Notes: generated from the letters alone by a model not told the origin. DNA of 64,000 nucleotides from Halolamina sp. CBA1230 (GCF_002025255.2 NZ_CP054587.1:2728001-2792000); one strand, 5' to 3'; shown: positions 1-13,761, numbered from the stretch's first letter. Numbers and translations: made by a program.

Positions 1-656
1 GTCGTATCGAGTTCGCGAGACTCGAACTCCTCACGGACAACCTCCCAGACGGGCATGGTTCGCTCCGCGACGGCCACGGCGCCGAACAGGCCGACCATCG
101 CCATTCCCATGAAGAACGGCTCGACCGCGTTGTGGTCAGCAGCGCCGACGAGCGTTCGCCGGAGGAACAGGCCGGGAAGGAGCGCAAGGAGGAACACGCC
201 GAACAGGCCGCCGATGCGGTTGCTGAACCGTTTCCCGATGAAGTAGACGGGGACCACGGCGAGGGCACCGAAGACGGCCGGCGAGACGAGGAGGACTTTG
301 GCGATGAGAGTCTCGCTCGGGGAACCGAGGCCGATGATCAGGGCGACGAGGGCGATCAGCTGGTCGTAGAGCGTCCCGAACTGTCCCGCGAACACGCCAA
401 CTGGGAACCCTGTCCAGGGGTCGTACGGCATGACGCCGGGGAAGTTCAGCGTGCTGTACGTGCTCTGTCGCAGGTGGTACCAGGCGTCGTTCCCGGAGAA
501 GTACACCTCGTTGTTTTGGAGGAACCGGGAGTAGCTCTGCATTCGGACCCAGAACATCCACGCCATCGCGAGGAGGAGCGCGGGGACGTGATACCAGTCA
601 GTTGCCGTATGGCGGAGTGACTGGAGTAAGTCGTCATGTTCGCTGCGCGAACTCAT
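1..656 (-). CDS. aglB: Oligosaccharyltransferase AglB, N-terminal part (runs off left edge)
   Basis: This is the 5' part (about 218 codons) of an STT3-family oligosaccharyltransferase, the enzyme that moves the finished glycan from dolichol phosphate to Asn in N-X-S/T sequons on the outer face of the membrane. Reading the minus strand from the ATG at 656 gives a hydrophobic first helix, then the luminal motif SGNDAWYHLRQ, which matches the first acidic metal-binding motif of STT3/AglB. Further membrane segments follow, then AADHNAVEPFF, which matches the second conserved motif. The frame is open to base 1, so the C-terminal WWDYG region is outside the window. Divergent to aglG, as expected for an agl cluster. 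Very likely correct. Confidence 0.9.
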   Translation of the reverse strand, partial: MSSRSEHDDLLQSLRHTATDWYHVPALLLAMAWMFWVRMQSYSRFLQNNEVYFSGNDAWYHLRQSTYSTLNFPGVMPYDPWTGFPVGVFAGQFGTLYDQLIALVALIIGLGSPSETLIAKVLLVSPAVFGALAVVPVYFIGKRFSNRIGGLFGVFLLALLPGLFLRRTLVGAADHNAVEPFFMGMAMVGLFGAVAVAERTMPVWEVVREEFESRELDT

Positions 657-814: not shown

Positions 815-1753
815 ATGAAGGTCTCCGTCGTCATCTGCACGTACTCGATGGATCGGTACGAGGTGTTCTGCGACGCGGTCGACAGTGTGCTCGAGCAGAC
901 GTACGAGCCGGTCGAGATCGTGCTGGTCGTCGACGGTAACGAAACCGTGTTCGAACGCGTGCGCGAGGCGTACGGGGGTATCGAGAACGTCGTCTGCCAC
1001 AACAACGACGAGAACCGCGGGATTTCCTACAGTCGGACGAAGGGCGCGGAGCTCGCGTCGGGGGAGATCGTCGCGTTCATCGACGACGACGCCGCCGCCG
1101 AACCGGACTGGGTGGAACAGCTGGTCGAGGTGTACGAGGAGACGGACGCCATCGCCGTCGGCGGCGACGTGAGGCCCAACTGGCAGACCGAGAAACCGGA
1201 GTTCTTCCCGGAGGAGTTCTACTGGCTCGTTGGCTGTGTGGAACCGGGGTTCGCAGAAGACGGCGAGGAGGTCCGGAACACGTACGGCTCGAACATCTCC
1301 TACCGGCGCGAGAACTTTCTGGAGGTCGGCGGCTACGACCCGAACACGGGGCGGAAGGGGGACAAACATCTGCAGGCCCACGAAGCACCCGTGGGAGTCC
1401 GACTGCTCGAGGAGTACGGGCGGGGGATGGTGTTCACCGAGGACGCGGTGGTCAATCACACGCTGTTCGACTACCGCGGGGAGTTCGACTGGCTGGTGTC
1501 GCGCTCGTTCTGGCAGGGGTACTCCAAACGCGTGATGGATCTGCTGTATCCGGACGCGCCCGACGACAAGAGCGCGTATCTGGAGCAGTTGATGACGGAG
1601 CGCGTTCCGGGGCGGCTGAAGGGGCTGGTGCGGTCGCCGTCGGCGGCGGCGGTGAAGCAGTTGCTCGCGATCTTCGTGTTCACTGGTGCGGTGGGGCTGG
1701 GGTATCTGTACGCGATCCTGACGCCGGACGTGGTGGAGAAGGCTAACTCGTAG
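815..1753 (+). CDS. aglG: GT2 glycosyltransferase, AglG-like
   Basis: 312-residue family-2 glycosyltransferase. The N-terminus MKVSVVICTYSMDRYEVFCD and the nucleotide-sugar/metal motif FIDDDAAAEPDW (about residues 88-99) are typical of the GT-A fold. A hydrophobic segment near the C-terminus (LLAIFVFTGAVGLGYLYAIL) anchors it to the cytoplasmic side of the membrane. In Haloferax volcanii AglG transfers glucuronic acid as the second sugar of the S-layer pentasaccharide, and this protein resembles AglG by memory of that family; the exact sugar is inferred. It is divergent from aglB and its 3' end overlaps the convergent glycosyltransferase gene by 11 bases. AglI-like activity cannot be excluded. 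Confidence 0.8.
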   Translation: MKVSVVICTYSMDRYEVFCDAVDSVLEQTYEPVEIVLVVDGNETVFERVREAYGGIENVVCHNNDENRGISYSRTKGAELASGEIVAFIDDDAAAEPDWVEQLVEVYEETDAIAVGGDVRPNWQTEKPEFFPEEFYWLVGCVEPGFAEDGEEVRNTYGSNISYRRENFLEVGGYDPNTGRKGDKHLQAHEAPVGVRLLEEYGRGMVFTEDAVVNHTLFDYRGEFDWLVSRSFWQGYSKRVMDLLYPDAPDDKSAYLEQLMTERVPGRLKGLVRSPSAAAVKQLLAIFVFTGAVGLGYLYAILTPDVVEKANS

Positions 1754-2648
1754 GCGCCGGGACGTCGTCGCGTTTCTCGCCGAGGAGGAACTCGTAGTAG
1801 TAGCCCAGGCCACGGCAGGCGAGCATGGCGATCGAGAGGAACACGAACGCCAGGCGAGTGAAGGTGGAGTCGGGGTCGTTTTCGTCGCCGTCGCCGATGT
1901 CGTCCCCACTGGGCGTCGGTGGAATACCGGGATTGCCGAATCGGTCCGGGTAGTAGCGCTGTTTCTGACAGAACCCTCGGCCGACACGGAAGTTCTTCTT
2001 CGCCAGCGCGTCGAAGCTGGTGCGCGCGGGATGGTAGACGACAGCGTCCTCGGCGTACCCCTGTTCGTACCCGGCTTCGTGGACGCGCTCGCCGAACTCC
2101 CGGTCGCCGCTGGAGATGAGTCGGCTGTCGAAGGTGCCCACGTCCTCGAACACCTCGCGGCGCACGAGCAGCGCGCACGTGGGCGCGTAGTGTTCGTTCT
2201 CGAGGTACTGCTTCACGGGGAACCCAGTGCGGGCGTTGAACCGACCGACGAGCGTGTCCTCGGGGAGCGTGAGTTCGACGTTGCAGCCGAGGTAGTCGGC
2301 GTTCTGTTCGTCCATCGCCTGGAGGGCGGTTTCGAGCCAGTCGTCGTCGACAGTCTCGTCGGCGTCGATGAAGGCGAGCACGTCGCCGTCGGCGTGTTGG
2401 ATACCTTTGTTGCGGGCGGCGTAGGAACCCTGGATCTCGTCCTCAACGAGGAGGTGAACGTTTTCGTGGTCTTGAGTGTAGTTGCGGATTACGTCGCGGG
2501 TGTCGTCGGTGGAGCCGTTGTCGACGACGAGGATTTCGAGAGTTGCAGGTTGCGTTACCGATTGGGTGATGGAGTCAAGTGTGTCCGAAACCCCAGCAGG
2601 ATCGTTGTACACCGGAATGACCACGGAGACATTGGACTCTCGGGTCAC
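1743..2648 (-). CDS. GT2 glycosyltransferase, AglE-like (paralog 1)
   Basis: 301-residue family-2 glycosyltransferase: SVVIPVYNDPAG at the N-terminus, AARNKGIQHADGDVLAFIDAD as the donor-binding region (split here by family convention at about residues 78-98), DYLGCNVE, APTCALLVRREV and the C-terminal VVYHPARTSFDALAKK. A hydrophobic segment near residues 265-280 (LAFVFLSIAMLACRGLGYYY) suggests membrane anchoring. AglE of Haloferax adds the fourth sugar of the N-glycan; this is the closest recognisable type. It is the last gene of a four-gene minus operon and its ATG overlaps the stop of the FkbM gene (ATGA), so the two are probably translationally coupled. Substrate unknown. Confidence 0.75.
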   Translation of the reverse strand: MTRESNVSVVIPVYNDPAGVSDTLDSITQSVTQPATLEILVVDNGSTDDTRDVIRNYTQDHENVHLLVEDEIQGSYAARNKGIQHADGDVLAFIDADETVDDDWLETALQAMDEQNADYLGCNVELTLPEDTLVGRFNARTGFPVKQYLENEHYAPTCALLVRREVFEDVGTFDSRLISSGDREFGERVHEAGYEQGYAEDAVVYHPARTSFDALAKKNFRVGRGFCQKQRYYPDRFGNPGIPPTPSGDDIGDGDENDPDSTFTRLAFVFLSIAMLACRGLGYYYEFLLGEKRDDVPAPTS

Positions 2649-3463
2649 TCGTCTGTTCGCGTTGCGAGTAAGTGAACTTCGTCGTTACGCTGTCGAAGGA
2701 CCTCCACTGAGAGCCCTCCAGACTCCAACACATCGGTCACCTCGGATTGTTCAACGTGGCTGGGATGTACCTCCACTAGAACGATCCTCGCGTTTCGGAG
2801 TCCATTGTCGAACCCTTCGAGTACATCGAGTTCTCCCCCTTCGACGTCGATTTTCATCACGTCCGGAAGGGGAAGGGACTCCTCTCGGGCCAGTTCGTCG
2901 CCCGGAACGACATTCACGTCGATGGATTCGGAACTTGTGGAGGTGTTCTGAAGTGAGAATGTACCGACCCCGGCAACGCTTTGATCCGACTCCGGGGGCG
3001 CTAAGCTGGCCTTCTCTCGGTGCTCACCGAGAGCGTATTTCACGATGGTAGCATCGATACCGTTCAGCTGGCAGTTTTTCTGTGCTCGTCGAGCGTTGTC
3101 AGGAAACGGTTCGACTGCGATAGTTCGCTCCACCTTCTGTCCGACGTAGCACGAATAAGTGCCGATGTTCGCGCCAATGTCCCAGAAAACGTCGTCCGGA
3201 CGGACCCGTTCCAGAAGGCACTCGATCACGAAATCCTCGTCTTGGTAGTCGGTGACTCGTAAGAATTCACGGAAAGAATCCACGTTGAACGAGGACTCTA
3301 TCTCCCCGACTGATCTCTTGACTGTTCCGGAGTTGAGCCGGTAACGGAGTTGAAGGAGTCGCCATTCCAGATGATCTGTGATAGAGGAAAATACGGAATT
3401 TGCCATTCTTCTTGTAAAGGGCGGCTCGTACCGTTCTAAGTTTTCCGAATCCAGAAACCGCAC
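2645..3463 (-). CDS. FkbM-family SAM-dependent methyltransferase
   Basis: 272 residues. The SAM-binding motif VFWDIGANIGTYSCYVG lies near residues 92-108, AVEPFPDNARRAQKNCQLNG (about 115-134) is the acidic strand after it, and MKIDVEGGELDVLEGF (about 203-218) is the FkbM signature. FkbM proteins O-methylate sugars or polyketides. Here, between two glycosyltransferases in an agl operon, methylation of a glycan hydroxyl or carboxylate is the likely role. It may stand in for AglP, the hexuronic-acid methyltransferase of Haloferax, which I do not see in the window. The gene is AT-richer than aglF or aglM. Start ATG 3463 lies 3 bases after the stop of the upstream glycosyltransferase gene. Confidence 0.85.
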   Translation of the reverse strand: MRFLDSENLERYEPPFTRRMANSVFSSITDHLEWRLLQLRYRLNSGTVKRSVGEIESSFNVDSFREFLRVTDYQDEDFVIECLLERVRPDDVFWDIGANIGTYSCYVGQKVERTIAVEPFPDNARRAQKNCQLNGIDATIVKYALGEHREKASLAPPESDQSVAGVGTFSLQNTSTSSESIDVNVVPGDELAREESLPLPDVMKIDVEGGELDVLEGFDNGLRNARIVLVEVHPSHVEQSEVTDVLESGGLSVEVLRQRNDEVHLLATRTDE

Positions 3464-3466
3464 CGA

Positions 3467-4333
3467 CTACCTCAAGATGTGACGGAAATAAATCCTTACC
3501 GAGCGTAGTGTCTGGATCACCTTCAGAAGATAGGAGATCAAATAGATCCCCAGAGGAAGCTGACTGCTCTGGGTCCTGTTCTTGACTCTTTCAGGAGAGG
3601 GAGGTAGTAAGCGAAGTGGGGATACCGGATGCATGGCGAGGCTGTGTCGCTTCCAGAGTTGCACCTGCCCCTCACCGATTCGGTCAGCCTTCTTCATCAA
3701 GGAAACAAGGGAAGTGCGAGCAGGGTGCTCTACGACTATATCAGGTGCGTAGTCGAGAGTAAAGCCACGATCGCTGACCCTCTTCCCGAATTCCTTGTCA
3801 CCACCAGAAACCAGCGTTTCGTCGAATTGTCCGACCTGCTTGATCACCTCCCGACGCACCGCCAGCGCACACGTGGGAGCGAATCGTTTGGTCTCCAGAT
3901 AGTGTTGCACCGGAAGTCCCATCGCAACATCGTATCGTGCCCAGATCGAGTCCTCGCCGTTGGGAACATACATTTCGACGTTGCAACCGAGGTAGTCTAC
4001 ACTTGAACTCCGGAACTTTTCGGAGATATCCGCTACCCAGCGTTCACCCACCGTGACATCTGCATCGATGAACGCAAGAACCTCCCCAGACGCATGTTGG
4101 ATTCCGGTATTCCGAGCGGCGTACGAACTCTGGATATCCGTTTCGGAGTGGCCAAACACGAGATCGGGGTATCCCTCTTCGAACTCTCTAATCACATCTG
4201 GTGTCGAATCCGTCGAGTCGTTGTCGACGACGATGATCTCGTACTCGGGATGGCTGGATTGTTCCGTCAACGAACGTAGTGTCTCTTTGATCCCTTCCGG
4301 GTCATTGAACACGGGAATTATCACAGATATCAT
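3467..4333 (-). CDS. GT2 glycosyltransferase, AglE-like (paralog 2)
   Basis: 288 residues from ATG 4333; a GTG at 4342 would add three residues but MISVIIPVFNDPEG is the usual family start. It shares with paralog 1 the blocks AARNTGIQHASGEVLAFIDAD (one residue longer than the cited core), DYLGCNVE, FAPTCALAVRREV, GGDKEFGKRV and VVEHPARTS, so the two arose by duplication. The C-terminus (LPLGIYLISYLLKVIQTL) is moderately hydrophobic. It lies 46 bases after the PLP enzyme gene and directly before the FkbM gene in one transcription unit. AT-rich third positions set it apart from aglG. Sugar donor and acceptor are unknown; a branch or terminal sugar of the N-glycan is likely. Confidence 0.75.
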   Translation of the reverse strand: MISVIIPVFNDPEGIKETLRSLTEQSSHPEYEIIVVDNDSTDSTPDVIREFEEGYPDLVFGHSETDIQSSYAARNTGIQHASGEVLAFIDADVTVGERWVADISEKFRSSSVDYLGCNVEMYVPNGEDSIWARYDVAMGLPVQHYLETKRFAPTCALAVRREVIKQVGQFDETLVSGGDKEFGKRVSDRGFTLDYAPDIVVEHPARTSLVSLMKKADRIGEGQVQLWKRHSLAMHPVSPLRLLPPSPERVKNRTQSSQLPLGIYLISYLLKVIQTLRSVRIYFRHILR

Positions 4334-4379
4334 GATGACCACGGAATGTCAGGGTTCATCCCATCGACACCAGAACAGG

Positions 4380-5411
4380 CTAATTCGTGAAGATATCGAA
4401 ATACTGCTCGCCGCCGTCACAGGCGATCAGCACGACATGAGCGTCCTCGTCGTCCTCGGCGATGTCACGAGCGACTTTCAGCGCGGCGCTGCTGGACGTG
4501 CCGATCAGGAGACCGTGTTCGGTCGCGGCAGTTCGAGCGAACGAGACTGCAGTTTCGTCGTCCACAGACTCGACGCGATCGATGTAGTCGAACCACATCG
4601 TCGGTGTCTCACCGCTCTTTCCAAGTCCCTCGATTCGAGTGCTGTACTCGACCGGCTCGTCGCCGTAGAAGGCAGAACTAATGTTCGATTTCTCGGCGTC
4701 GACGCCGACGATTTCGACGGACGGGTCCTGCTCCTTGATGTGTTTCCCGATCCCCGACAGTGTTCCACCGGTCCCCATCGGACAGACGACGTGAGTCAGT
4801 TCGTCGGTCTGGTCCCAGAGCTCCGGGCCGGTCCACTTCTCGTGCACCTGCGGGTTCAGTTGGTTCTGGTACTGGTTCAGGAAGATGCCACCACGCTCGT
4901 CGGCAATAGCTCGGGCGCGGTTCCGATAGTGGTCCTCGTGATCGGAGTCAACGTCGGGGCAGGTGACGAGGTCGGCACCAAGGGACTCGACGTATCCCAT
5001 CTTTTGCCCGCTCGTCGTCTCGGGAGTGGTGATCACGCTCTCGTATCCGAGCCTGTTGGCAGCGAGAGCAACTCCCCCGGCGGTGTTACCGGACGACGCC
5101 TCGACGACGAGGTCGTCCTCGGATAGCTTCCCGGATCGTTGCATCTCCAGAATCATGCCGACAGCAATCCGGTCTTTCATTGATCCGGTGGGGTTCTCTT
5201 TTTCGAGTTTGACTCTGAGGTCGCCGGCGAGCGGTTCCGGATACTCGATCAGTGACGTGCCCCCAATGAGGGAGAGGATAGGGTCTTCGATGTTGTACGG
5301 TAGCATACTGTGTTTCTGTCGTCTCTTATCGCGGTGTTGTTGCATCGCCTTCGCCGTGATCATGCAGCCTCCGCCGTCGGCAATATCGTCGAACGGATTC
5401 TCCTCCCCCAT
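4380..5411 (-). CDS. PLP-dependent cysteine synthase-family enzyme
   Basis: 343 residues from ATG 5411. Fold-type II PLP enzyme: ENPTGSMKDR carries the Schiff-base lysine (about K79), EASSGNTAGG (about 105-114) is the substrate loop, GTGGTLSGIGKHIKE binds the phosphate, and GTSSSAALKVARD follows. This is the layout of O-acetylserine sulfhydrylase, cystathionine beta-synthase and SbnA-type enzymes, which do beta-replacement on an activated serine. The first 35 residues (with HRDKRRQKH) are an unusual basic extension. It leads an operon with two glycosyltransferases and a methyltransferase, which argues against housekeeping cysteine synthesis and for making a glycan precursor amino acid (cysteine, diaminopropionate or similar). 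The product is inferred, not proven. Confidence 0.8.
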   Translation of the reverse strand: MGEENPFDDIADGGGCMITAKAMQQHRDKRRQKHSMLPYNIEDPILSLIGGTSLIEYPEPLAGDLRVKLEKENPTGSMKDRIAVGMILEMQRSGKLSEDDLVVEASSGNTAGGVALAANRLGYESVITTPETTSGQKMGYVESLGADLVTCPDVDSDHEDHYRNRARAIADERGGIFLNQYQNQLNPQVHEKWTGPELWDQTDELTHVVCPMGTGGTLSGIGKHIKEQDPSVEIVGVDAEKSNISSAFYGDEPVEYSTRIEGLGKSGETPTMWFDYIDRVESVDDETAVSFARTAATEHGLLIGTSSSAALKVARDIAEDDEDAHVVLIACDGGEQYFDIFTN

Positions 5412-5496
5412 TATTTGCTGGAACGCAAAGCCGGTTGTTAAACTGATTGGTTTTTTACCCGTCGAAGCGAACGAGTGGCACAAGCCTTCGACTAAG

Positions 5497-7122
5497 ATGA
5501 AATCTAAAATCGAGTTGTCCGATGAGATCTGGTCCGAGCGCGAGAACGTGTTCGTTCGCGGTCACGCTTTCCACGAGGACGAATACATGGAAGCTGCCGA
5601 AATCAGTGAGTTGGTCCGGGAAACTGAGGGAGTGAGCGGACTGGCTTCCCTCCTCAAGGATTTCAACGGCTTCTACTCTATCGTCGTGGACCGAGACGAG
5701 CAAACCCTCATCGCCTCGGATCGGATGCGCACTGGGCCGGTGTTCTACGCCTCGACGGAGAACGATTTTCTGATCACCGATGACTGCGGCTGGATACTCG
5801 AGCGAACGACAGAGAATCACCGATCCGACCTCTCTGAGATTGAATACGAAAGAAGTCGTATTGTAACGGGCCCGAATACGCTGTATCAGGAGATCGACCA
5901 ACTCCAATCCGGAGAGATAGTCGTCCTCGACAAGACAGAGAACGAAATCGAACGTCGTCGACACCACGTCCACACCACCTCAAACGAGGAGTACGATCCC
6001 GAGGAACTCGGAGAGGAGTTCATCGACGTGCTCGACAACGTATTCGACCGAGTGATTCGTGCCGCTCAGGGGAGACAGATCGTTGTCCCACTCAGTGGCG
6101 GCTACGACTCACGCTTGATCGCGCTGATGCTGAAACGATCGGGCTACGAGAACGTCATGACGTACTCGGATAAGTCGAGTGGGTCGAAAAACGCCGAAGT
6201 CGCTAAGAAGGTAGCTGAGAACTTGGATCTACCATGGTCAACCGTAGATATCACCCACTCTGACTGGCGGTCGTTCTACAATTCAGAGAGATGGGGTGAA
6301 TACTTCGACAAGGCTGGGTACCTCGGCAGCTTGCCGATCCCTACTCATATATTCACTCTAGAGAAACTCATCGAAGAAGGCGAAATTACCCGAGACGCCA
6401 TAGTTCTCCCTGGTCATTCCGCTCTGGATACTATGAAGGCGACTCCAGAGAGATTGGAGGGAAAGAGCGACATTGACCTCGGGGAACTGACTTCTCTGAT
6501 CGTCGATCAGCACTTCAAGTACAACACCCACATACAGATACCACAACGAAGACTGGCTAATCGAGTCGCCGGATCGATCGGAATGGACACACCCGATGAA
6601 CCCGAATCGGCTGTAGAAGCGTTCGAACGGTGGCGTTTGAAGGAGCGCAGGACGAAACTGATCGTGAACGGGAATCGCCCGTTTGATTTTGTCGGTTTGG
6701 ACTGCTGGATACCCCTGGAGGACGAGGAGCTGTATCAATTTTGGCGAAACGTGCCGATGGAACAGAAGAGACACAGATCGTTCTACGAACAGTACATTAC
6801 TGATATATATACACGAACGGCTGGCATAAATCCGGAAGAGGCGGACGAGATCGCAGACACTACTCTGAAGACGAAGATAGCGGATGTGATCCGCGAATAC
6901 CCAATTTGGCCACTGGTCAAGAATGGCTACGAACACTGGGAAGAGAGTCGTCTACGACGTGAAATATCCAAACGTTTTGAGGTGCATGAGAGGTACCGAA
7001 GTGACCCCCGGTTAGGAATACTGACCGAAAAACAGTTCAAAAATCTATACAACGGTCAGAACTACCAATTCTATCCTCTACTGGCCCGGATGACAACCGG
7101 GAATATATCAACAGGGGAATAG
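5497..7122 (+). CDS. Asparagine synthetase-like ligase with inactive glutaminase domain
   Basis: 541 residues. The C-terminal half is an Asn-synthetase ATP-pyrophosphatase domain with the PP-loop SGGYDS at residues 200-205. The N-terminal 150 residues resemble a class-II glutamine amidotransferase domain (DFNGFYSIVVDRDEQTLIASD, one stretch before it ends; VFYASTENDFLITDD) but the protein starts MKSK. The catalytic Cys that must follow the initiator Met in working glutaminases is therefore absent. Such glutaminase-dead proteins (beta-lactam synthetase, lasso-peptide cyclase types) activate a carboxylate as an acyl-adenylate and join it to another amine. Divergent from the PLP enzyme across an 85-base intergenic gap. 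Inferred role: amide formation on a glycan uronic acid. AT-rich. Confidence 0.75.
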   Translation: MKSKIELSDEIWSERENVFVRGHAFHEDEYMEAAEISELVRETEGVSGLASLLKDFNGFYSIVVDRDEQTLIASDRMRTGPVFYASTENDFLITDDCGWILERTTENHRSDLSEIEYERSRIVTGPNTLYQEIDQLQSGEIVVLDKTENEIERRRHHVHTTSNEEYDPEELGEEFIDVLDNVFDRVIRAAQGRQIVVPLSGGYDSRLIALMLKRSGYENVMTYSDKSSGSKNAEVAKKVAENLDLPWSTVDITHSDWRSFYNSERWGEYFDKAGYLGSLPIPTHIFTLEKLIEEGEITRDAIVLPGHSALDTMKATPERLEGKSDIDLGELTSLIVDQHFKYNTHIQIPQRRLANRVAGSIGMDTPDEPESAVEAFERWRLKERRTKLIVNGNRPFDFVGLDCWIPLEDEELYQFWRNVPMEQKRHRSFYEQYITDIYTRTAGINPEEADEIADTTLKTKIADVIREYPIWPLVKNGYEHWEESRLRREISKRFEVHERYRSDPRLGILTEKQFKNLYNGQNYQFYPLLARMTTGNISTGE

Positions 7123-7168: not shown

Positions 7169-7885
7169 CTACGCCTCAGCCTGCAATCGCTCCTCCGCCT
7201 CGTCCCGATCCTCCGGATATCCAACGTCGATCCGCCACCCTTCCATCGGGATCGCGTCGATGGTTCGCCCACTCTTGATCAGCAGGTCGATCGCGTCCGA
7301 CAGTTCGTACTCGTCACGATCCGACGGTTGGACCAGCTTACACGCGTGGAAGATCGCCGGTGAGAACGTGTAGAACCCAGTCATCACCAAATTGCTCGGC
7401 GGATCGTCGGGCTTCTCTACAACCTCCTGAATCTCGCCGTAGTCGTTCGTGTCACAGACGCCGTAGCGACTCGCCTCCTCGTACGGGACTTCTTCGACCA
7501 AGAACGCGGCATCAGCCCGATCTTCCTGCTGCCGACTGACCACGTCCTCCAGGTTCGCCTGGAAGATGTTGTCGCCGAGCATCAGCATGAAGTCCTCGTC
7601 GACGTGCTCCTCCGCCTTTAGGAGCGCGTGTGCCAGCCCCTTCTGCTCACGCTGGTGAGCGTACGTGATCGGCACCCCCTCGAACTCGTCGCCGAAGTGG
7701 CTGATGATGTTCTGTTTCTTGTAGCCGACGATGACCACGAGCTTCTCGGCGCCGAGCTCCACCAGCTGCTCGAAGCAGTGCGTGAGGATCGGCTTGCCGG
7801 CGACTTCGACCATCCCTTTGGGTTTATCCTCGGTCAGCGGGCGGAGGCGCGTCCCCTCACCAGCCGCGAGAACCACAGCCTGCAT
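7169..7885 (-). CDS. aglF: UTP-glucose-1-phosphate uridylyltransferase AglF-like
   Basis: 238-residue nucleotidyltransferase. The N-terminal signature VVLAAGEGTRLRPLTEDKPK binds the nucleotide. MLGDNIF carries the metal-binding aspartate, EVVEKPDDPPSN is the usual EKP motif, and GWRIDVGYPEDRDEA is the C-terminal product-site motif. AglF of Haloferax makes UDP-glucose, which AglM then oxidises to UDP-glucuronate; aglM is nearby on the plus strand. No left-handed beta-helix domain follows, so it is the short form. A TATA-like box about 25 bases before the ATG suggests a leaderless transcript. A dTTP-specific RmlA function is the main alternative. Confidence 0.85.
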   Translation of the reverse strand: MQAVVLAAGEGTRLRPLTEDKPKGMVEVAGKPILTHCFEQLVELGAEKLVVIVGYKKQNIISHFGDEFEGVPITYAHQREQKGLAHALLKAEEHVDEDFMLMLGDNIFQANLEDVVSRQQEDRADAAFLVEEVPYEEASRYGVCDTNDYGEIQEVVEKPDDPPSNLVMTGFYTFSPAIFHACKLVQPSDRDEYELSDAIDLLIKSGRTIDAIPMEGWRIDVGYPEDRDEAEERLQAEA

Positions 7886-7978: not shown

Positions 7979-8986
7979 TTACTTGTAACCGAGATCGCGG
8001 AGGTGCTGCTCCAGTTCGACGCGTTCTCCCCTCTCGCTCTCCAAATCCGGTTCGCGCGTGTGTTCATCACTCGCCGACGTTTCAACCCACGGAACCTTCT
8101 TCACGGTCGGATGGGGGAATCCCTCCGGATGCCCGTACGCACCTCCCTCCCCGAAGGCCTCTCCGTGGTCGGACGTGATGGCAACCCGTTCAGCGTCGAT
8201 GTTCTCCAGTAGGACTTCGACCTCGTCGAGGACGGTTCGGAGCGTTTCCTTGTACAGTTCGTAGATCTCCTCTCGATCCGCGTCCCCCGTTTCGAGATAC
8301 TCGTATCCCTCCCGTTCGAGATCAGTCAGCGGCCGATTCTCACGAATAGCTCGTCCGAGATAGGGAAGATGTGGCTGCATGTAGTGAACCATCAACCGAT
8401 CCGGATCGTCGTTCCTCCCCGCCTCAATGGCATGGTTAGTCATTACGCGAGGAAGGACGATGTTGTACGTGTCGTCGTGGTAATTCTTCCAGATCAGGTC
8501 TACACTGTCGAACGCCGACAGATCAACGAGATTCCACCGCGAGAAGTCTACCGGTGTCGTATTGTTTTTCGGTGGGAGAATATCCCGCTCAAATAGCTGG
8601 CTGGTATGGCCATTCCCGCTCAGGTACTGTGTTCGCTCTATTTCGTCCTGATACTCCTCTGTGAACGTGTTTGCCATCCACTCGTCGGACTGACTTCCGA
8701 CGGACCACATCGTATCGACGCTCTCGATGAAATCGTACTCCGACGAAACCTCCCGAAGAGTATCGACACGGCACGCGTCGAGAATCAGGAGTACGTCCCA
8801 GTCTCGTTCGTACACGTTCGTCCCGATCGGTCGCCGCGAGGTTACCGCGTACCACAGAACGAGATACCACGTATACACGACGTAAAGCGGGGCCCGGGTC
8901 GGATTATTGCGGAATCGCCGACCCATCTCTGCAAGCCACTCGCGGACGTTCGTCTGCATAGATTCGCGGAAGGTAGGAAGAGGCAT
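7979..8986 (-). CDS. Sulfatase-fold (alkaline phosphatase superfamily) hydrolase
   Basis: 335 residues. One membrane segment near residues 34-50 (LYVVYTWYLVLWYAV). WDVLLILDACRVDTLREV (about 63-80) carries the first metal aspartate and the cysteine/serine position of the sulfatase nucleophile. VAITSDHGEAFGEGGAYGHP near residue 270 is the second metal site. Such proteins are common inside haloarchaeal polysaccharide and agl clusters; they may hydrolyse or transfer sulfate or phosphate on glycans, or work as phosphoglycosyl/phosphoethanolamine-type transferases. Which of these applies here cannot be read from the sequence. It follows the aglR-like gene by 12 bases in the same direction, so it is probably co-transcribed with the flippase. 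Confidence 0.75.
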   Translation of the reverse strand: MPLPTFRESMQTNVREWLAEMGRRFRNNPTRAPLYVVYTWYLVLWYAVTSRRPIGTNVYERDWDVLLILDACRVDTLREVSSEYDFIESVDTMWSVGSQSDEWMANTFTEEYQDEIERTQYLSGNGHTSQLFERDILPPKNNTTPVDFSRWNLVDLSAFDSVDLIWKNYHDDTYNIVLPRVMTNHAIEAGRNDDPDRLMVHYMQPHLPYLGRAIRENRPLTDLEREGYEYLETGDADREEIYELYKETLRTVLDEVEVLLENIDAERVAITSDHGEAFGEGGAYGHPEGFPHPTVKKVPWVETSASDEHTREPDLESERGERVELEQHLRDLGYK

Positions 8987-8998
8987 GAAACGACCGGT

Positions 8999-10423
8999 CT
9001 ACTCTCGGAAGATCGGCACCTGAAACGGCAGATTGTCCTCCACAGTGGTCCGGAACTCACGTGACAGCACGAGCAACACGAGGAAGTAGAACCCTGCACC
9101 GATACCCACGAGCACGGTCACGAGGGGAAGTGACTCCCCCACCACCGTCCGAAGCGGGTAGACGACTGCCACCATCGCACCGGCCGCGATCCACTGTTTC
9201 CCGATCTCCGCCAGCGGAACGACGACGTCCAGCACTTGCGAGGCGTAGTAGTAGCCGAGCACCAACCCGATCGCCGCGGAGATCGTCGTCGCCGCCGCCG
9301 CCCCGTACCAGCCGTACTGCCACGTGAGCAGGATGTTCAGGATCAGATTCACTCCGACGAAGACAGCGTTGATACGGAACGTGAGATCTGGACGGTCGAC
9401 AGCGTCGAGTGTCGTGACGAACTGCCCCTGATAGCCGTACAGCAGACGGGCGAACGTCAGAACCAGGAGGACGTAGTAACCCGTTTCGAACCCCGGACCG
9501 TACACCTGGAGGACGATATCGCCGACCAACGCGCCCCCGGCGAGTCCTGGGATGATGAACAGTCCCGAATACGCCAAACTCACTCGAAGGAGCCCTGATA
9601 TCTCCCCACTAATTCCGGACTCGGAGGAGAGCTCGCTGATTTCGGGGAACAGCGTTCGCTGGATCGACGACCCGAAGATGGAGAACAGCGAGGCGAGGTT
9701 CCACGCGATCTCGTAGACGGCGATGACGCTGTTCGAGACGAACACCGCGAGGACGAGCGTGTCCATCGAGAGGAAAGTCCGTCCCTTGATCGAGGCGAGC
9801 CACGAGAACTGTGCGTAGGACTTGAGTCGCGAGAAGTCGCGTTTCGACGGGACCGACAACGACGTCGATACGAAGTACGCGCCGAGGGCTGCACCTACGA
9901 CTGCTCCAGCGACGTATCCGGCGAACGCGCCTGCCACCCCCGCACCTGAGAGCACCAACAGAACCTGGACGATACTTCGGCTCGTCCACTCGACCGGGGT
10001 GAGGATGCTCGAGACGTGTACCAAGTGCTGGGCATCGAGAACGGACTGGACGAAGTTCGCCGCGAGTCGAACAGCCAGGAGGACGATCAAGACCCACGTC
10101 GCTTCGATCTCCATGTATCCGTTCAGGTACGGGCGAGATACCCAGAGGCAGATCGCGACGACAGTGTACAGGCCGGATTGGACGACGATGCCGGCCGAGA
10201 GGTAGTTCCCTTCCGCGGACTCACTGACCCGCTTTTTCACGGCCGCAGTAACTCCGAGGTCGCCAGCGATCGCGACCCACGCGAGCACCGACAGAACCAC
10301 GACGTACGTCCCGTACCGCTCTTGACCGAGCGTGTTCGTGAGGACGATAGTGGCGACGAATCCCGAAAACGACATCACCAGCCGCGACAGGAAGTTCACC
10401 ATTGAGGTGCGGCCGTATCTCAT
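8999..10423 (-). CDS. aglR: Wzx/MATE-type flippase, AglR-like
   Basis: 474-residue integral membrane protein with about 14 hydrophobic segments. It starts MRYGRTSMVNFLSRLVMSF and has the repeated pattern of polysaccharide-biosynthesis (MVF/MATE) flippases, such as TIVLTNTLGQERYGTYVVVL in the first pair of helices. AglR in Haloferax helps bring dolichol-phosphate-mannose across the membrane and lies in the agl cluster, so the location fits. An alternative start is the Met at 10402. It is divergent from aglM over 155 bases, with a TATA-like sequence (GGATAAAG) about 65 bases upstream of its ATG. Which lipid-linked sugar it moves is inferred. Confidence 0.8.
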   Translation of the reverse strand: MRYGRTSMVNFLSRLVMSFSGFVATIVLTNTLGQERYGTYVVVLSVLAWVAIAGDLGVTAAVKKRVSESAEGNYLSAGIVVQSGLYTVVAICLWVSRPYLNGYMEIEATWVLIVLLAVRLAANFVQSVLDAQHLVHVSSILTPVEWTSRSIVQVLLVLSGAGVAGAFAGYVAGAVVGAALGAYFVSTSLSVPSKRDFSRLKSYAQFSWLASIKGRTFLSMDTLVLAVFVSNSVIAVYEIAWNLASLFSIFGSSIQRTLFPEISELSSESGISGEISGLLRVSLAYSGLFIIPGLAGGALVGDIVLQVYGPGFETGYYVLLVLTFARLLYGYQGQFVTTLDAVDRPDLTFRINAVFVGVNLILNILLTWQYGWYGAAAATTISAAIGLVLGYYYASQVLDVVVPLAEIGKQWIAAGAMVAVVYPLRTVVGESLPLVTVLVGIGAGFYFLVLLVLSREFRTTVEDNLPFQVPIFRE

Positions 10424-10578: not shown

Positions 10579-11889
10579 ATGCACCTCTCCATCGTCGGCA
10601 GCGGCTACGTCGGCTCCACGATCGCCGCCTGTTTCGCCGACCTCGGCCACGACGTCGTCAACATCGACATCGACCAGTCGATCGTCGACACGATCAACGC
10701 GGGCGAAGCCCCGATCCACGAGGACGGGCTCCCCGAGCTCGTCGACGCCCACGCGGGCGAGAACTCAACCAACCGCCTCCGGGCCACCACCGACTACGAC
10801 GCCGTCCTCGACACCGACGTGACGTTTCTCTGTCTCCCGACGCCGCAGGCCGAGGACGGGAGTATCGACCTCTCGATCATGGCCGCCGGCGCGGAGCAGC
10901 TGGGCGAGACCCTCGCCGCGAAGGACGACCGCCACACCGTCGTCGTGAAGAGCACCGTCGTCCCCGGCACCACCGAGGAGGAGATCGCGCCACTCCTCCA
11001 GACACCCTCCGAGCGAGCCGACAGTGGCACCGTCGGCGTCGGCATGAACCCCGAGTTCCAGCGGGAAGGAACCGCCGTTCACGACTTCCGCCACCCGGAC
11101 AAGCTCGTCCTCGGCGCCGACGACGAGCACACGCGCGAGGAGATGCACGCGGTGTTCGCCCCGCTGCTCGAGGAACACGACGCGCCGGTCGTCGAGACCG
11201 ACACCCGGACTGCGGAGATGGCGAAGTACGCGAACAACGCCTTCCTCGCCTCGAAGGTCTCGCTGATCAACGATCTCGGGAACATCTGCAAGCGGTTCGA
11301 CATCGACGCCTACGAGATCGCCGACGCGATCGGCCTCGACGACCGGATCGGCGACCAGTTCCTGCGGAGCGGCCTCGGGTGGGGCGGTAGCTGCTTCCCG
11401 AAGGACACCCGCGCGATCATCCACGCCGCCGAGGAGGCGGGGTACGAGCCGCCGATGCTGAACGCCGCGATCGAGGTGAACGACGGCCAGCCCGAACGAC
11501 TGCTCGAACTCCTCGACGACCACATCGACGTCGACGGAGAACGCGTTGCCGTCCTGGGGCTCGCGTTCAAACCCGGCACCGACGACATCCGGAACGCGCG
11601 CTCCATCCCAGTGATCGAGGGTCTCCAGGAACGGAACGCGACGATCGTGGCCTACGACCCCGTCGCCGCCGACGAGATGCGCGAGCGCTTCCCGGAGATC
11701 GAGTACGCCGACTCGGCCGCCGACGCACTCACGGACGCGAGCGCGGCGCTGATCGTGACCGAGTGGGACGAGTTCGCCGCGCTGGACGAGGAGTTCGAGG
11801 CGATGGCGCGCAAACTGGTCGTCGACGGCCGCCGTGTCGACCTCCCGATCGAGGAGCGCGACCTCGAGTACGAAGGGCTCTGTTGGTAA
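10579..11889 (+). CDS. aglM: UDP-glucose 6-dehydrogenase AglM
   Basis: 436 residues. The Rossmann motif [20 protein letters not shown] opens the NAD domain, [13 protein letters not shown] is the conserved linker, [19 protein letters not shown] is the central helix, and [13 protein letters not shown] contains the catalytic cysteine. [18 protein letters not shown] opens the UDP-binding domain. The enzyme oxidises UDP-glucose twice to UDP-glucuronic acid, the donor for the acidic sugars of the N-glycan. It follows from aglF in the pathway. A TATA-like CCTTTACC about 25 bases upstream suggests a short leader. Family assignment is firm; the UDP-sugar specificity is by family. Confidence 0.92.
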
Positions 11890-12549: not shown

Positions 12550-13761
12550 ATGGAGGTGCGGCGTACTGTCCCAGTTGCGCTCAACGTAGACAGCGACGAC
12601 GCCGCACTCCTCGAAGACACCGTAGACACCTTCCTCTGGTCGGCACAGTACGTCGTAGACCACGCTTTCCAGGGCGAGTACGTCACCACCAGCAAGACCA
12701 CGCTGGACGACGAAACCTACGACGATGTGCGCGAAGCCACGGATGGATTCAACGGTGGACTGGTACAAGCCGCTCGGAACAAGGCCGCCGAAGCCTGCAA
12801 AAGCGTCGTCGCACGCTGGAAACAGGGTAAGAAAGCCTCGAAACCTACGTTCACCAGCCCACACGTCGTCTACGACCATCGCACCGCCACCTTCCACGAC
12901 GACTACGTGAGCCTCGCCACCACAGACGGACGCATCGAAGCCGACTACGTACTGCCCGACGAGGATAGTAACACACCGCACTCAGAGTACCTGTTTTCAG
13001 ACGAGTACGAAACAACGGGTGCGGAACTCCACTATCACGACGGCGACTGGGTGCTTCACATCCACTGCAAGAAGGAAGTGGAGTCTGACACGCCGGCACA
13101 GGCAACCACTGAGAACGGAACGGTTCTCGGGGTTGACCTCGGCGTGAACAACCTCGCCGTCACATCGACGGGCACGTTCTGGACGGGCGACGAGTTCGAC
13201 CACTGGCGCAGGGAATACGAGAAACGGCGTGGCGACCTCCAGCAATGTGGGACGCGATGGGCGCACGAGAATATGCAGTCCGTCGGACGGAAAGAGGAAG
13301 GGCGGTTCAAGCTCATGATGCATCGAATCGCCAACGGACTCGTCACGGAAGCCCGCGAGAACGAGTGTTCGGTAATTGTGTTCGAGGATTTGACCGACAT
13401 TCGTGAGCGGACTGGTGCGTCGTGGGAACACAAGTGGGCGTTCGACCGCCTCTACAACTACGTTGAGTACAAGGCCGAAGAATACGACATTTCGGCCAAG
13501 CAGGTTGACCCCGAGAACACGTCGCGGCGATGCTCACATTGCGGACTTACTCATCCCGACAACCGCGACGGCGAGGACTTCGAGTGTCTGAAGTGTGGCT
13601 ACCAGAACCACGCGGATTACAACGCTTCGAAGAACATCGGATTGCGGTATCTCCGTCGCAACCAAACTGGAGGCGACGGAGGCGCACCCTTGGGCGTGCG
13701 CTTGAACAGCGGGACAGTGAACGTGAACGGAGGCTATTCTCCTGCCACTACTAGTGGCTAG
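12550..13761 (+). CDS. tnpB: TnpB, RNA-guided nuclease of IS200/IS605 family
   Basis: 403 residues with a complete RuvC-like catalytic set: GVDLGVNN (D196), VIVFEDL (E279) and NHADYNAS (D356). A zinc ribbon CSHC...CLKC (C328, C331, C346, C349) sits between the last two. TnpB proteins are RNA-guided DNA endonucleases that use an omega RNA from the element's right end and help retain the element. Length is normal for the family and no frameshift is seen, so the nuclease is probably functional. The ATG follows an AT-rich stretch (ATATAATATATGG). No tnpA gene accompanies it. The 3' part of the gene overlaps the presumed omega RNA. Confidence 0.92.

Follow-up and report, generated by a model that had tools for sequence, protein, structure and literature searches.

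Why would an enzyme with the fold of a cysteine synthase and a relative of asparagine synthetase be encoded back to back within a cluster for protein N-glycosylation? This question is raised by two divergent genes in the window analysed here, a stretch of 64,000 nt (G000:C1:2728001-2792000) from the 3.47-Mb genome of the haloarchaeon Halolamina sp. CBA1230. An earlier note on this DNA had proposed that the two proteins make an amino acid and couple it to the carboxylate of a glycan. We analysed both proteins and followed their relatives through a sample of 391 Halobacteria genomes. We propose that the pair forms a module that decorates the agl N-glycan: it would make cysteate and link it as an amide to a glycan carboxylate. 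We hold this full reading with slightly less than even confidence, allowing that it may be right only in part with respect to the acceptor.

The gene pair within the agl locus

The features of the locus are compiled in Table 1. AglG, with AglB beyond it, is encoded on one side of the pair, and AglF, a sulfatase-fold protein, a flippase and AglM on the other. AglG, AglF and AglM all score above their NCBIfam equivalog cut-offs and AglB lies directly upstream, which places the pair in an agl locus, the context that the earlier note had assigned to it. AglM is the source of UDP-glucuronate, and AglG adds a carboxylate sugar to the lipid-linked glycan. Since AglG, AglF and AglM exceed the equivalog cut-offs, we take glucuronate to be both made and added at this locus.

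The gene of the pyridoxal phosphate (PLP) enzyme opens a tight minus-strand run, in which it is followed by a glycosyltransferase gene (GT2), the FkbM-family methyltransferase gene and a further GT2 gene, with gaps of 37 bp and 3 bp and then a 4-bp overlap. The claim that a PLP enzyme with a GSMKDR motif leads an operon of two glycosyltransferases and a methyltransferase was thus borne out. Homologues of the first GT2 of this run (3467-4342) are present in two other loci containing the pair (G176 and G199). The ligase gene is transcribed from the plus strand, divergently from the PLP gene, and both promoters are presumed to lie in the 85 bp between them.

Base composition sets the region apart. 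The GC content is 51.7% in the ligase gene and 59.2% in the PLP gene, compared to 66.2% in the window, and values of 52-59% extend over the FkbM, GT2, PLP and ligase genes (2645-7122). This segment is likely an acquired glycan-decoration island. A search of five further genomes of the genus found neither the PLP gene nor the ligase gene; AT-richness and absence from these five congeners are as expected for a variable surface-glycan island. An open reading frame with zinc-ribbon motifs at the margin of the locus (12550-13761, plus strand) resembles, judged by eye, an IS200/IS605-type TnpB.

Table 1. Features in and around the PLP/ligase gene pair (positions in the window).
Feature	Position	Strand	Basis and remarks
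AglB oligosaccharyltransferase, N-terminal part	3..656	-	L009:15273-18815; remainder upstream of the window; named from sequence and neighbours
AglG glucuronosyltransferase	815..1753	+	NF041394, 519 bits (cut-off 440)
GT2 glycosyltransferase	1743..2648	-	PF00535, 116 bits
FkbM-family methyltransferase	2645..3463	-	TIGR01444, 108.7 bits (cut-off 37.7)
GT2 glycosyltransferase, in the run of the PLP gene	3467..4342	-	PF00535, 99 bits
PLP fold-II beta-replacement enzyme (P0001), 343 aa; proposed cysteate-synthase-like	4380..5411	-	PF00291, 219 bits
Intergenic region, 85 bp, between the divergent PLP and ligase genes	5412..5496		47.1% GC (window 66.2%)
Asn-synthetase-like PP-loop ligase, glutaminase-less, 541 aa	5497..7122	+	PF00733, 30.7 bits (cut-off 21)
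AglF, UTP-glucose-1-phosphate uridylyltransferase	7169..7885	-	NF041313, 443.6 bits (cut-off 400)
Sulfatase/alkaline-phosphatase-fold protein	7979..8986	-	PF00884, 26.1 bits (cut-off 25)
Wzx/MurJ-type flippase	8999..10423	-	PF01943, 63.6 bits
AglM, UDP-glucose 6-dehydrogenase	10579..11889	+	NF041297, 757 bits (cut-off 670)

The ligase belongs to a family without the glutaminase cysteine

The ligase starts with MKSK and carries an intact PP-loop, SGGYDSR. On the model of glutamine-hydrolysing asparagine synthetase B (TIGR01536) it reaches 50.1 bits against a cut-off of 267, and the glutaminase nucleophile Cys2, a defining feature of that enzyme, is missing from its truncated N-domain. This domain is about 60 residues short, family position 57 being aligned with residue 117 of beta-lactam synthetase; therefore, the segment with the catalytic cysteine is absent and not mutated. 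In this respect the earlier description has to be amended. It had correctly reported MKSK in place of the Met-Cys start and an intact SGGYDS, but the stretch concerned is missing altogether. Because none of the 14 family members aligned has Cys2, not even a paralogue from the same genome, the loss of the glutaminase is a family trait and not specific to this locus.

A search of the PDB with the family profile gave beta-lactam synthetase as the top match (1jgt, E 3.9e-10), with an alignment that spans 1jgt residues 117-300 only, and also retrieved CarA (1q15). The ligase resembles both enzymes in the domain order of asparagine synthetase, where a dead N-domain precedes a synthetase domain with an intact PP-loop (the PP-loop core is invariant), and in the use of an amine that would not come from glutamine. 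However, beta-lactam synthetase and CarA close a ring inside one substrate, whereas the window ligase is proposed to join two, and its N-domain falls about 60 residues short of that of beta-lactam synthetase. From these features, we predict the ligase to be the kind of asparagine synthetase relative that forms amides without glutamine. A single-sequence AlphaFold model of the ligase had a pLDDT of 34, a value too low for use.

When contigs were scanned with the ligase as query, the sole match was a relative of 27% identity in a Bacillota contig, and no PLP gene was recognised among its neighbours. The genome of the window encodes a second glutaminase-less asparagine synthetase-like protein (L044:9219-10928; G000:C1:1517219-1518928), which is located near an SMC-like gene. 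No PLP or glycan genes were recognised alongside this paralogue and it has no NCBIfam match; its family is widely scattered among haloarchaea.

The PLP enzyme resembles several beta-replacement enzymes

Besides GSMKDR, the PLP enzyme contains an SSGNT motif. Its translation could start at the ATG at 5411 (343 aa) or at an alternative ATG at 5363 (327 aa). The start at 5411 is likely because the stretch GGCMxTAxAM upstream of the second ATG is kept in G176 and G023, and it replaced the start at 5363 after this comparison with homologues.

The enzyme falls below every curated cut-off, that of cysteate synthase included. It scores 217.4 bits on the CysK/CysM model (TIGR01136, cut-off 344), 208 bits on the CapA cysteate synthase model (NF053679, cut-off 600), 182 bits on the model of the 2,3-diaminopropionate synthase SbnA (TIGR03945, cut-off 350) and 212 bits on the cystathionine beta-synthase (CBS) model, again below the cut-off. 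The other CysK-like protein of the genome reaches 327.6 bits on the CysK/CysM model.

CapA is the cysteate synthase of bacterial sulfonolipid synthesis, and its product is used for lipid. The window enzyme shares 38% identity with CapA (PDB 9k2p; 181 bits) and 37% with the CysK-like protein of its own genome (136 bits). This greater nearness to CapA is one of two pointers to cysteate as the product, the better one being the linked racemases described below. Among PDB entries, 9k2p is the third-best match (E 3.3e-50), within 2 bits of the best; it was identified as CapA by a model score of 599 bits against the cut-off of 600, its sequence being partial. The best CysK of the PDB (8srt) matches the window enzyme equally well, with 176 bits compared to 174 bits for CapA. 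Both CapA and the window enzyme are fold-II PLP enzymes and have SSGNT, NQYxNxLNP and IEGxGK features in common. Unlike CapA, however, the window enzyme lies outside the equivalog group (208 versus 600 bits), and its proposed product would be destined for a glycan. Taken alone, the predicted protein does not decide among CysK/M, CBS, CapA and SbnA.

PLP genes recur beside glutaminase-less ligases of several families

Close homologues of the ligase (46-53% identity) occur in only three of the 391 genomes besides that of the window, and in all three the PLP gene is adjacent or one gene away. The PLP clade is present in 19 genomes of the sample. In ten of these, an asparagine synthetase-like gene is adjacent to the PLP gene or one gene from it. 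These ten ligases fall into three families: family A (the window, G176, G199 and G107), family B (G023, G207 and G108; 571-600 aa, starting M-x-R-F) and family C (G321, G241 and G270; starting MVGICG, with valine instead of cysteine at position 2). All ten lack Cys2 and retain the PP-loop (S/T)GGxDSR. A crude model that ignores shared descent gives a probability of about 2e-17 for ten pairings among 19 PLP genes. The pairing is not a matter of chance.

Further support for a common pathway is provided by a partner swap. The PLP enzyme of G023 is 72% identical to that of the window and nested in its clade (support 99/99), yet it is accompanied by a family B ligase. As such swapping of ligases beside the same PLP clade is otherwise hard to explain, we regard the product of the PLP enzyme as the probable substrate of the ligase. 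Judging by this gene pattern, the PLP enzyme probably supplies a ligase that forms amides, and there is a good likelihood that the two act in one pathway of amide formation. The closest family B (39-43%) and family C (70-72%) ligases are found in the company of PLP genes only, in this sample, and remote relatives occur in genomes without such a pair.

Two more loci have other partners. A fourth PP-loop protein (616 aa, FSGGADS), assigned by motif and length with a sub-threshold match to the PP-loop profile, is encoded 28 bp from the PLP gene of G371. In G351, a TupA-like ATP-grasp protein (L087:10614-11576; PF14305, 158 bits) is encoded 191 bp from the PLP homologue in an agl-type locus. This protein represents another class of amide ligases and possibly substitutes for the PP-loop ligase. 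No amide ligase was recognised near the remaining seven of the 19 PLP genes, most of which lie outside glycan loci; one of the seven (G195) sits near a contig end.

The idea of a functional pair, put forward in the earlier note, gains support from these data, since the close homologues are mostly located in agl or other surface-sugar loci. Likewise, every PP-loop partner of the PLP enzyme lacks the glutaminase cysteine, as had been claimed for the ligase of the window. Confinement of the homologues to sites outside agl loci, which the note had named as evidence against its reading, was looked for and did not hold: eight of the ten clear pairs are located with aglB/aglG.

A dead glutaminase is common to these ligase families as a whole, and their members are mostly found without a PLP gene. 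Relatives of family C occur in 63 of the 391 genomes, and they start with MVGICG, MAGLCG or similar; Cys2 was present in none of nine extra relatives read. Glutaminase loss had been considered as a marker of PLP coupling and was rejected, as family A and C relatives without a PLP gene also lack Cys2. Haloarchaea thus contain a large uncharacterised set of glutaminase-less asparagine synthetase-like proteins.

Linked racemases point to cysteate

In three other loci (G023, G207 and G108), all with family B ligases, the PLP gene has a gene of the Asp/Glu-racemase family in its vicinity. The operon order PLP-racemase-ligase, seen in G207 and G108, equals the order of the proposed pathway. The three racemases score 217, 231 and 225 bits, respectively, on the CuyB model (NF052483) by hmmscan, all above the cut-off of 190; their CuyB scores span 217-233 bits. 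CuyB is a cysteate racemase of sulfonate breakdown (PMC11382572), whereas the haloarchaeal racemases are proposed to serve synthesis. No other racemase of the 391 genomes exceeds this cut-off; the runner-up reaches 183 bits, and the majority of the haloarchaeal racemases found lie at 77-144 bits. The model is not perfectly specific, as one of 14 control genomes also yields a score above the cut-off. Both catalytic cysteines are kept in the three proteins, within the conserved PCNTAH and (G/A)C(T/S)D. An aspartate racemase-like fold suits cysteate because cysteate is an analogue of aspartate.

A CuyB-type racemase is absent from the genome of the window, and the pointer to cysteate is thus carried over from relatives whose ligases belong to another family (B, not A). 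On this comparison, the amino acid that the earlier note had left unspecified is probably cysteate; once the pathway is granted, we put this identity at about an even chance. CysE scores 47 bits in the genome of the window against a cut-off of 211, which, short of proof, would favour phosphoserine or serine as the donor. A protein of the PAPS-reductase family is present in the same genome and gives a weak hint of a sulfite supply.

A proposed route to an aminoacylated glycan and its alternatives

In the proposed pathway, the PLP enzyme would convert a serine derivative, probably O-phosphoserine, to PLP-bound aminoacrylate, and addition of sulfite would yield L-cysteate, as by CapA in sulfonolipid synthesis. 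In the relatives with a racemase, L-cysteate would be converted to the D form. Since the genome of the window lacks a CuyB-type racemase, the L form would be used here. The ligase would adenylate a carboxylate by means of its PP-loop, as beta-lactam synthetase does, and the amine of the PLP product would take the place of ammonia from glutamine, giving an amide. We consider it likely that the acceptor of the amino acid is a glycan. It would be a glycan carboxylate, most likely that of glucuronate made by AglM and added by AglG, on a lipid-linked or nucleotide-linked precursor. In loci with nonulosonic-acid genes the acceptor could be the carboxylate of that sugar; alternatively, the direction might be reversed, with a sugar amine as the acceptor. 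Extended to haloarchaea in general, the proposal is more tentative: cysteate would be made in N-glycosylation loci and its L or D form amide-linked to uronic or nonulosonic sugars by a PLP enzyme, an optional racemase and interchangeable ligases.

The same module might couple another amino acid to the glycan carboxylate, namely 2,3-diaminopropionate from an SbnA-like reaction, cysteine or some other beta-substituted alanine. Fold-II beta-replacement enzymes take many nucleophiles, scores of 182-217 bits on the CysK/M, CBS and SbnA models do not discriminate, and the ligase pairing serves equally as evidence for such a product. We nevertheless regard this as rather unlikely, since the linked racemases, and only those, match the cysteate racemase model and the SbnA score lies under those of the CysK/M, CBS and CapA models. 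Furthermore, no SbnB-like partner was recognised, and a separate CysK-like gene is present in the genome. That the PLP gene encodes an ordinary cysteine synthase, placed here by chance or for regulation, would agree with its fold and the presence of all core motifs. This appears highly improbable: the other CysK-like protein scores far higher on the CysK/CysM model (328 versus 217 bits), and the PLP gene has a patchy distribution (19 of 391 genomes, absent from the five others sampled in the genus) and recurs in surface-sugar loci. A housekeeping cysteine synthase is therefore disfavoured.

The direction of the ligase reaction was considered as well. The ligase could adenylate the PLP-derived amino acid at its carboxylate and join it to a sugar amine as an N-acyl group, as canonical asparagine synthetase activates an amino-acid carboxylate. 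Indeed, genes for nonulosonic acids (NeuB/PseI-like, PseG and WbuX) accompany the pairs of family B and of G371, and nonulosonic acids bear N-acyl groups. This is improbable, as the sugar genes recognised around the pair in the window include none for an amino sugar, AglM and AglG provide glucuronate, and the sulfonate of cysteate is not adenylatable like the beta-carboxylate of aspartate. Quite improbable, too, is a ligase that makes a uronamide from free ammonia while the PLP enzyme serves another purpose nearby. Families A and C, which lack the glutaminase, are often found where no PLP gene is present (family C in 63 of 391 genomes), and many of these ligases therefore have some other amine; however, this leaves unexplained why at least three ligase families stand beside the same PLP clade and why the partner was swapped in G023.

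Comparison with known aminoacylated glycans

The earlier note had regarded an aminoacylated uronic acid as an undescribed agl modification. The ligase idea found support, but this kind of modification is known. In the flagellin N-glycan of Methanococcus, threonine is amide-linked to C6 of ManNAcA, and the enzyme responsible had not been identified at the time of a 2010 review (PMC2952790). The likeness is that an archaeal N-glycan carries an amino acid on the C6 of a uronic acid, and the difference lies in the use of a common amino acid. In Vibrio cholerae VPS (PMC11637428), glycine forms an amide at C6 of a modified gulose (guluronic acid); this again is an amino acid at uronic-acid C6 of a surface polymer, but in a bacterial exopolysaccharide and with glycine. 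A sulfonated sugar, sulfoquinovose, occurs in the N-glycan of Sulfolobus (PMC2952790). No report of cysteate or of an asparagine synthetase-like ligase in haloarchaeal glycans was found in the open literature searched, an absence that is weak evidence. What we propose as new is that a haloarchaeal glycan carries a sulfonic amino acid, provided by a PLP enzyme of its own and attached by a ligase that lacks the glutaminase.

The gene pair offers a concrete, deletable candidate for the aminoacylation of uronic acids in archaeal N-glycans, with an exact mass prediction. If the amino acid is cysteate, it would have a biosynthetic role in archaeal surface glycans, and the pair would provide a route to a permanently charged sulfonate, and thus a new way to a strong negative charge, on the surface of a halophile. 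Such sulfonate decoration would be a parallel to O-sulfation. A possible function would also be at hand for part of the large unexplained set of asparagine synthetase-like proteins in haloarchaea.

Diverged relatives of the PLP enzyme

The PLP genes of G336, G195 and G351 (L085, L086 and L087) form a diverged subclade with about 48% identity. Their products have SHKDR, and STCG or GTCG in place of the phosphate-binding loop GTGGT. G195 also has a racemase-like gene, in whose product one catalytic cysteine is replaced by serine. In G344, outside any recognised glycan locus, a gene for a DUF1611 protein (L078:8439-9482) adjoins the PLP homologue.
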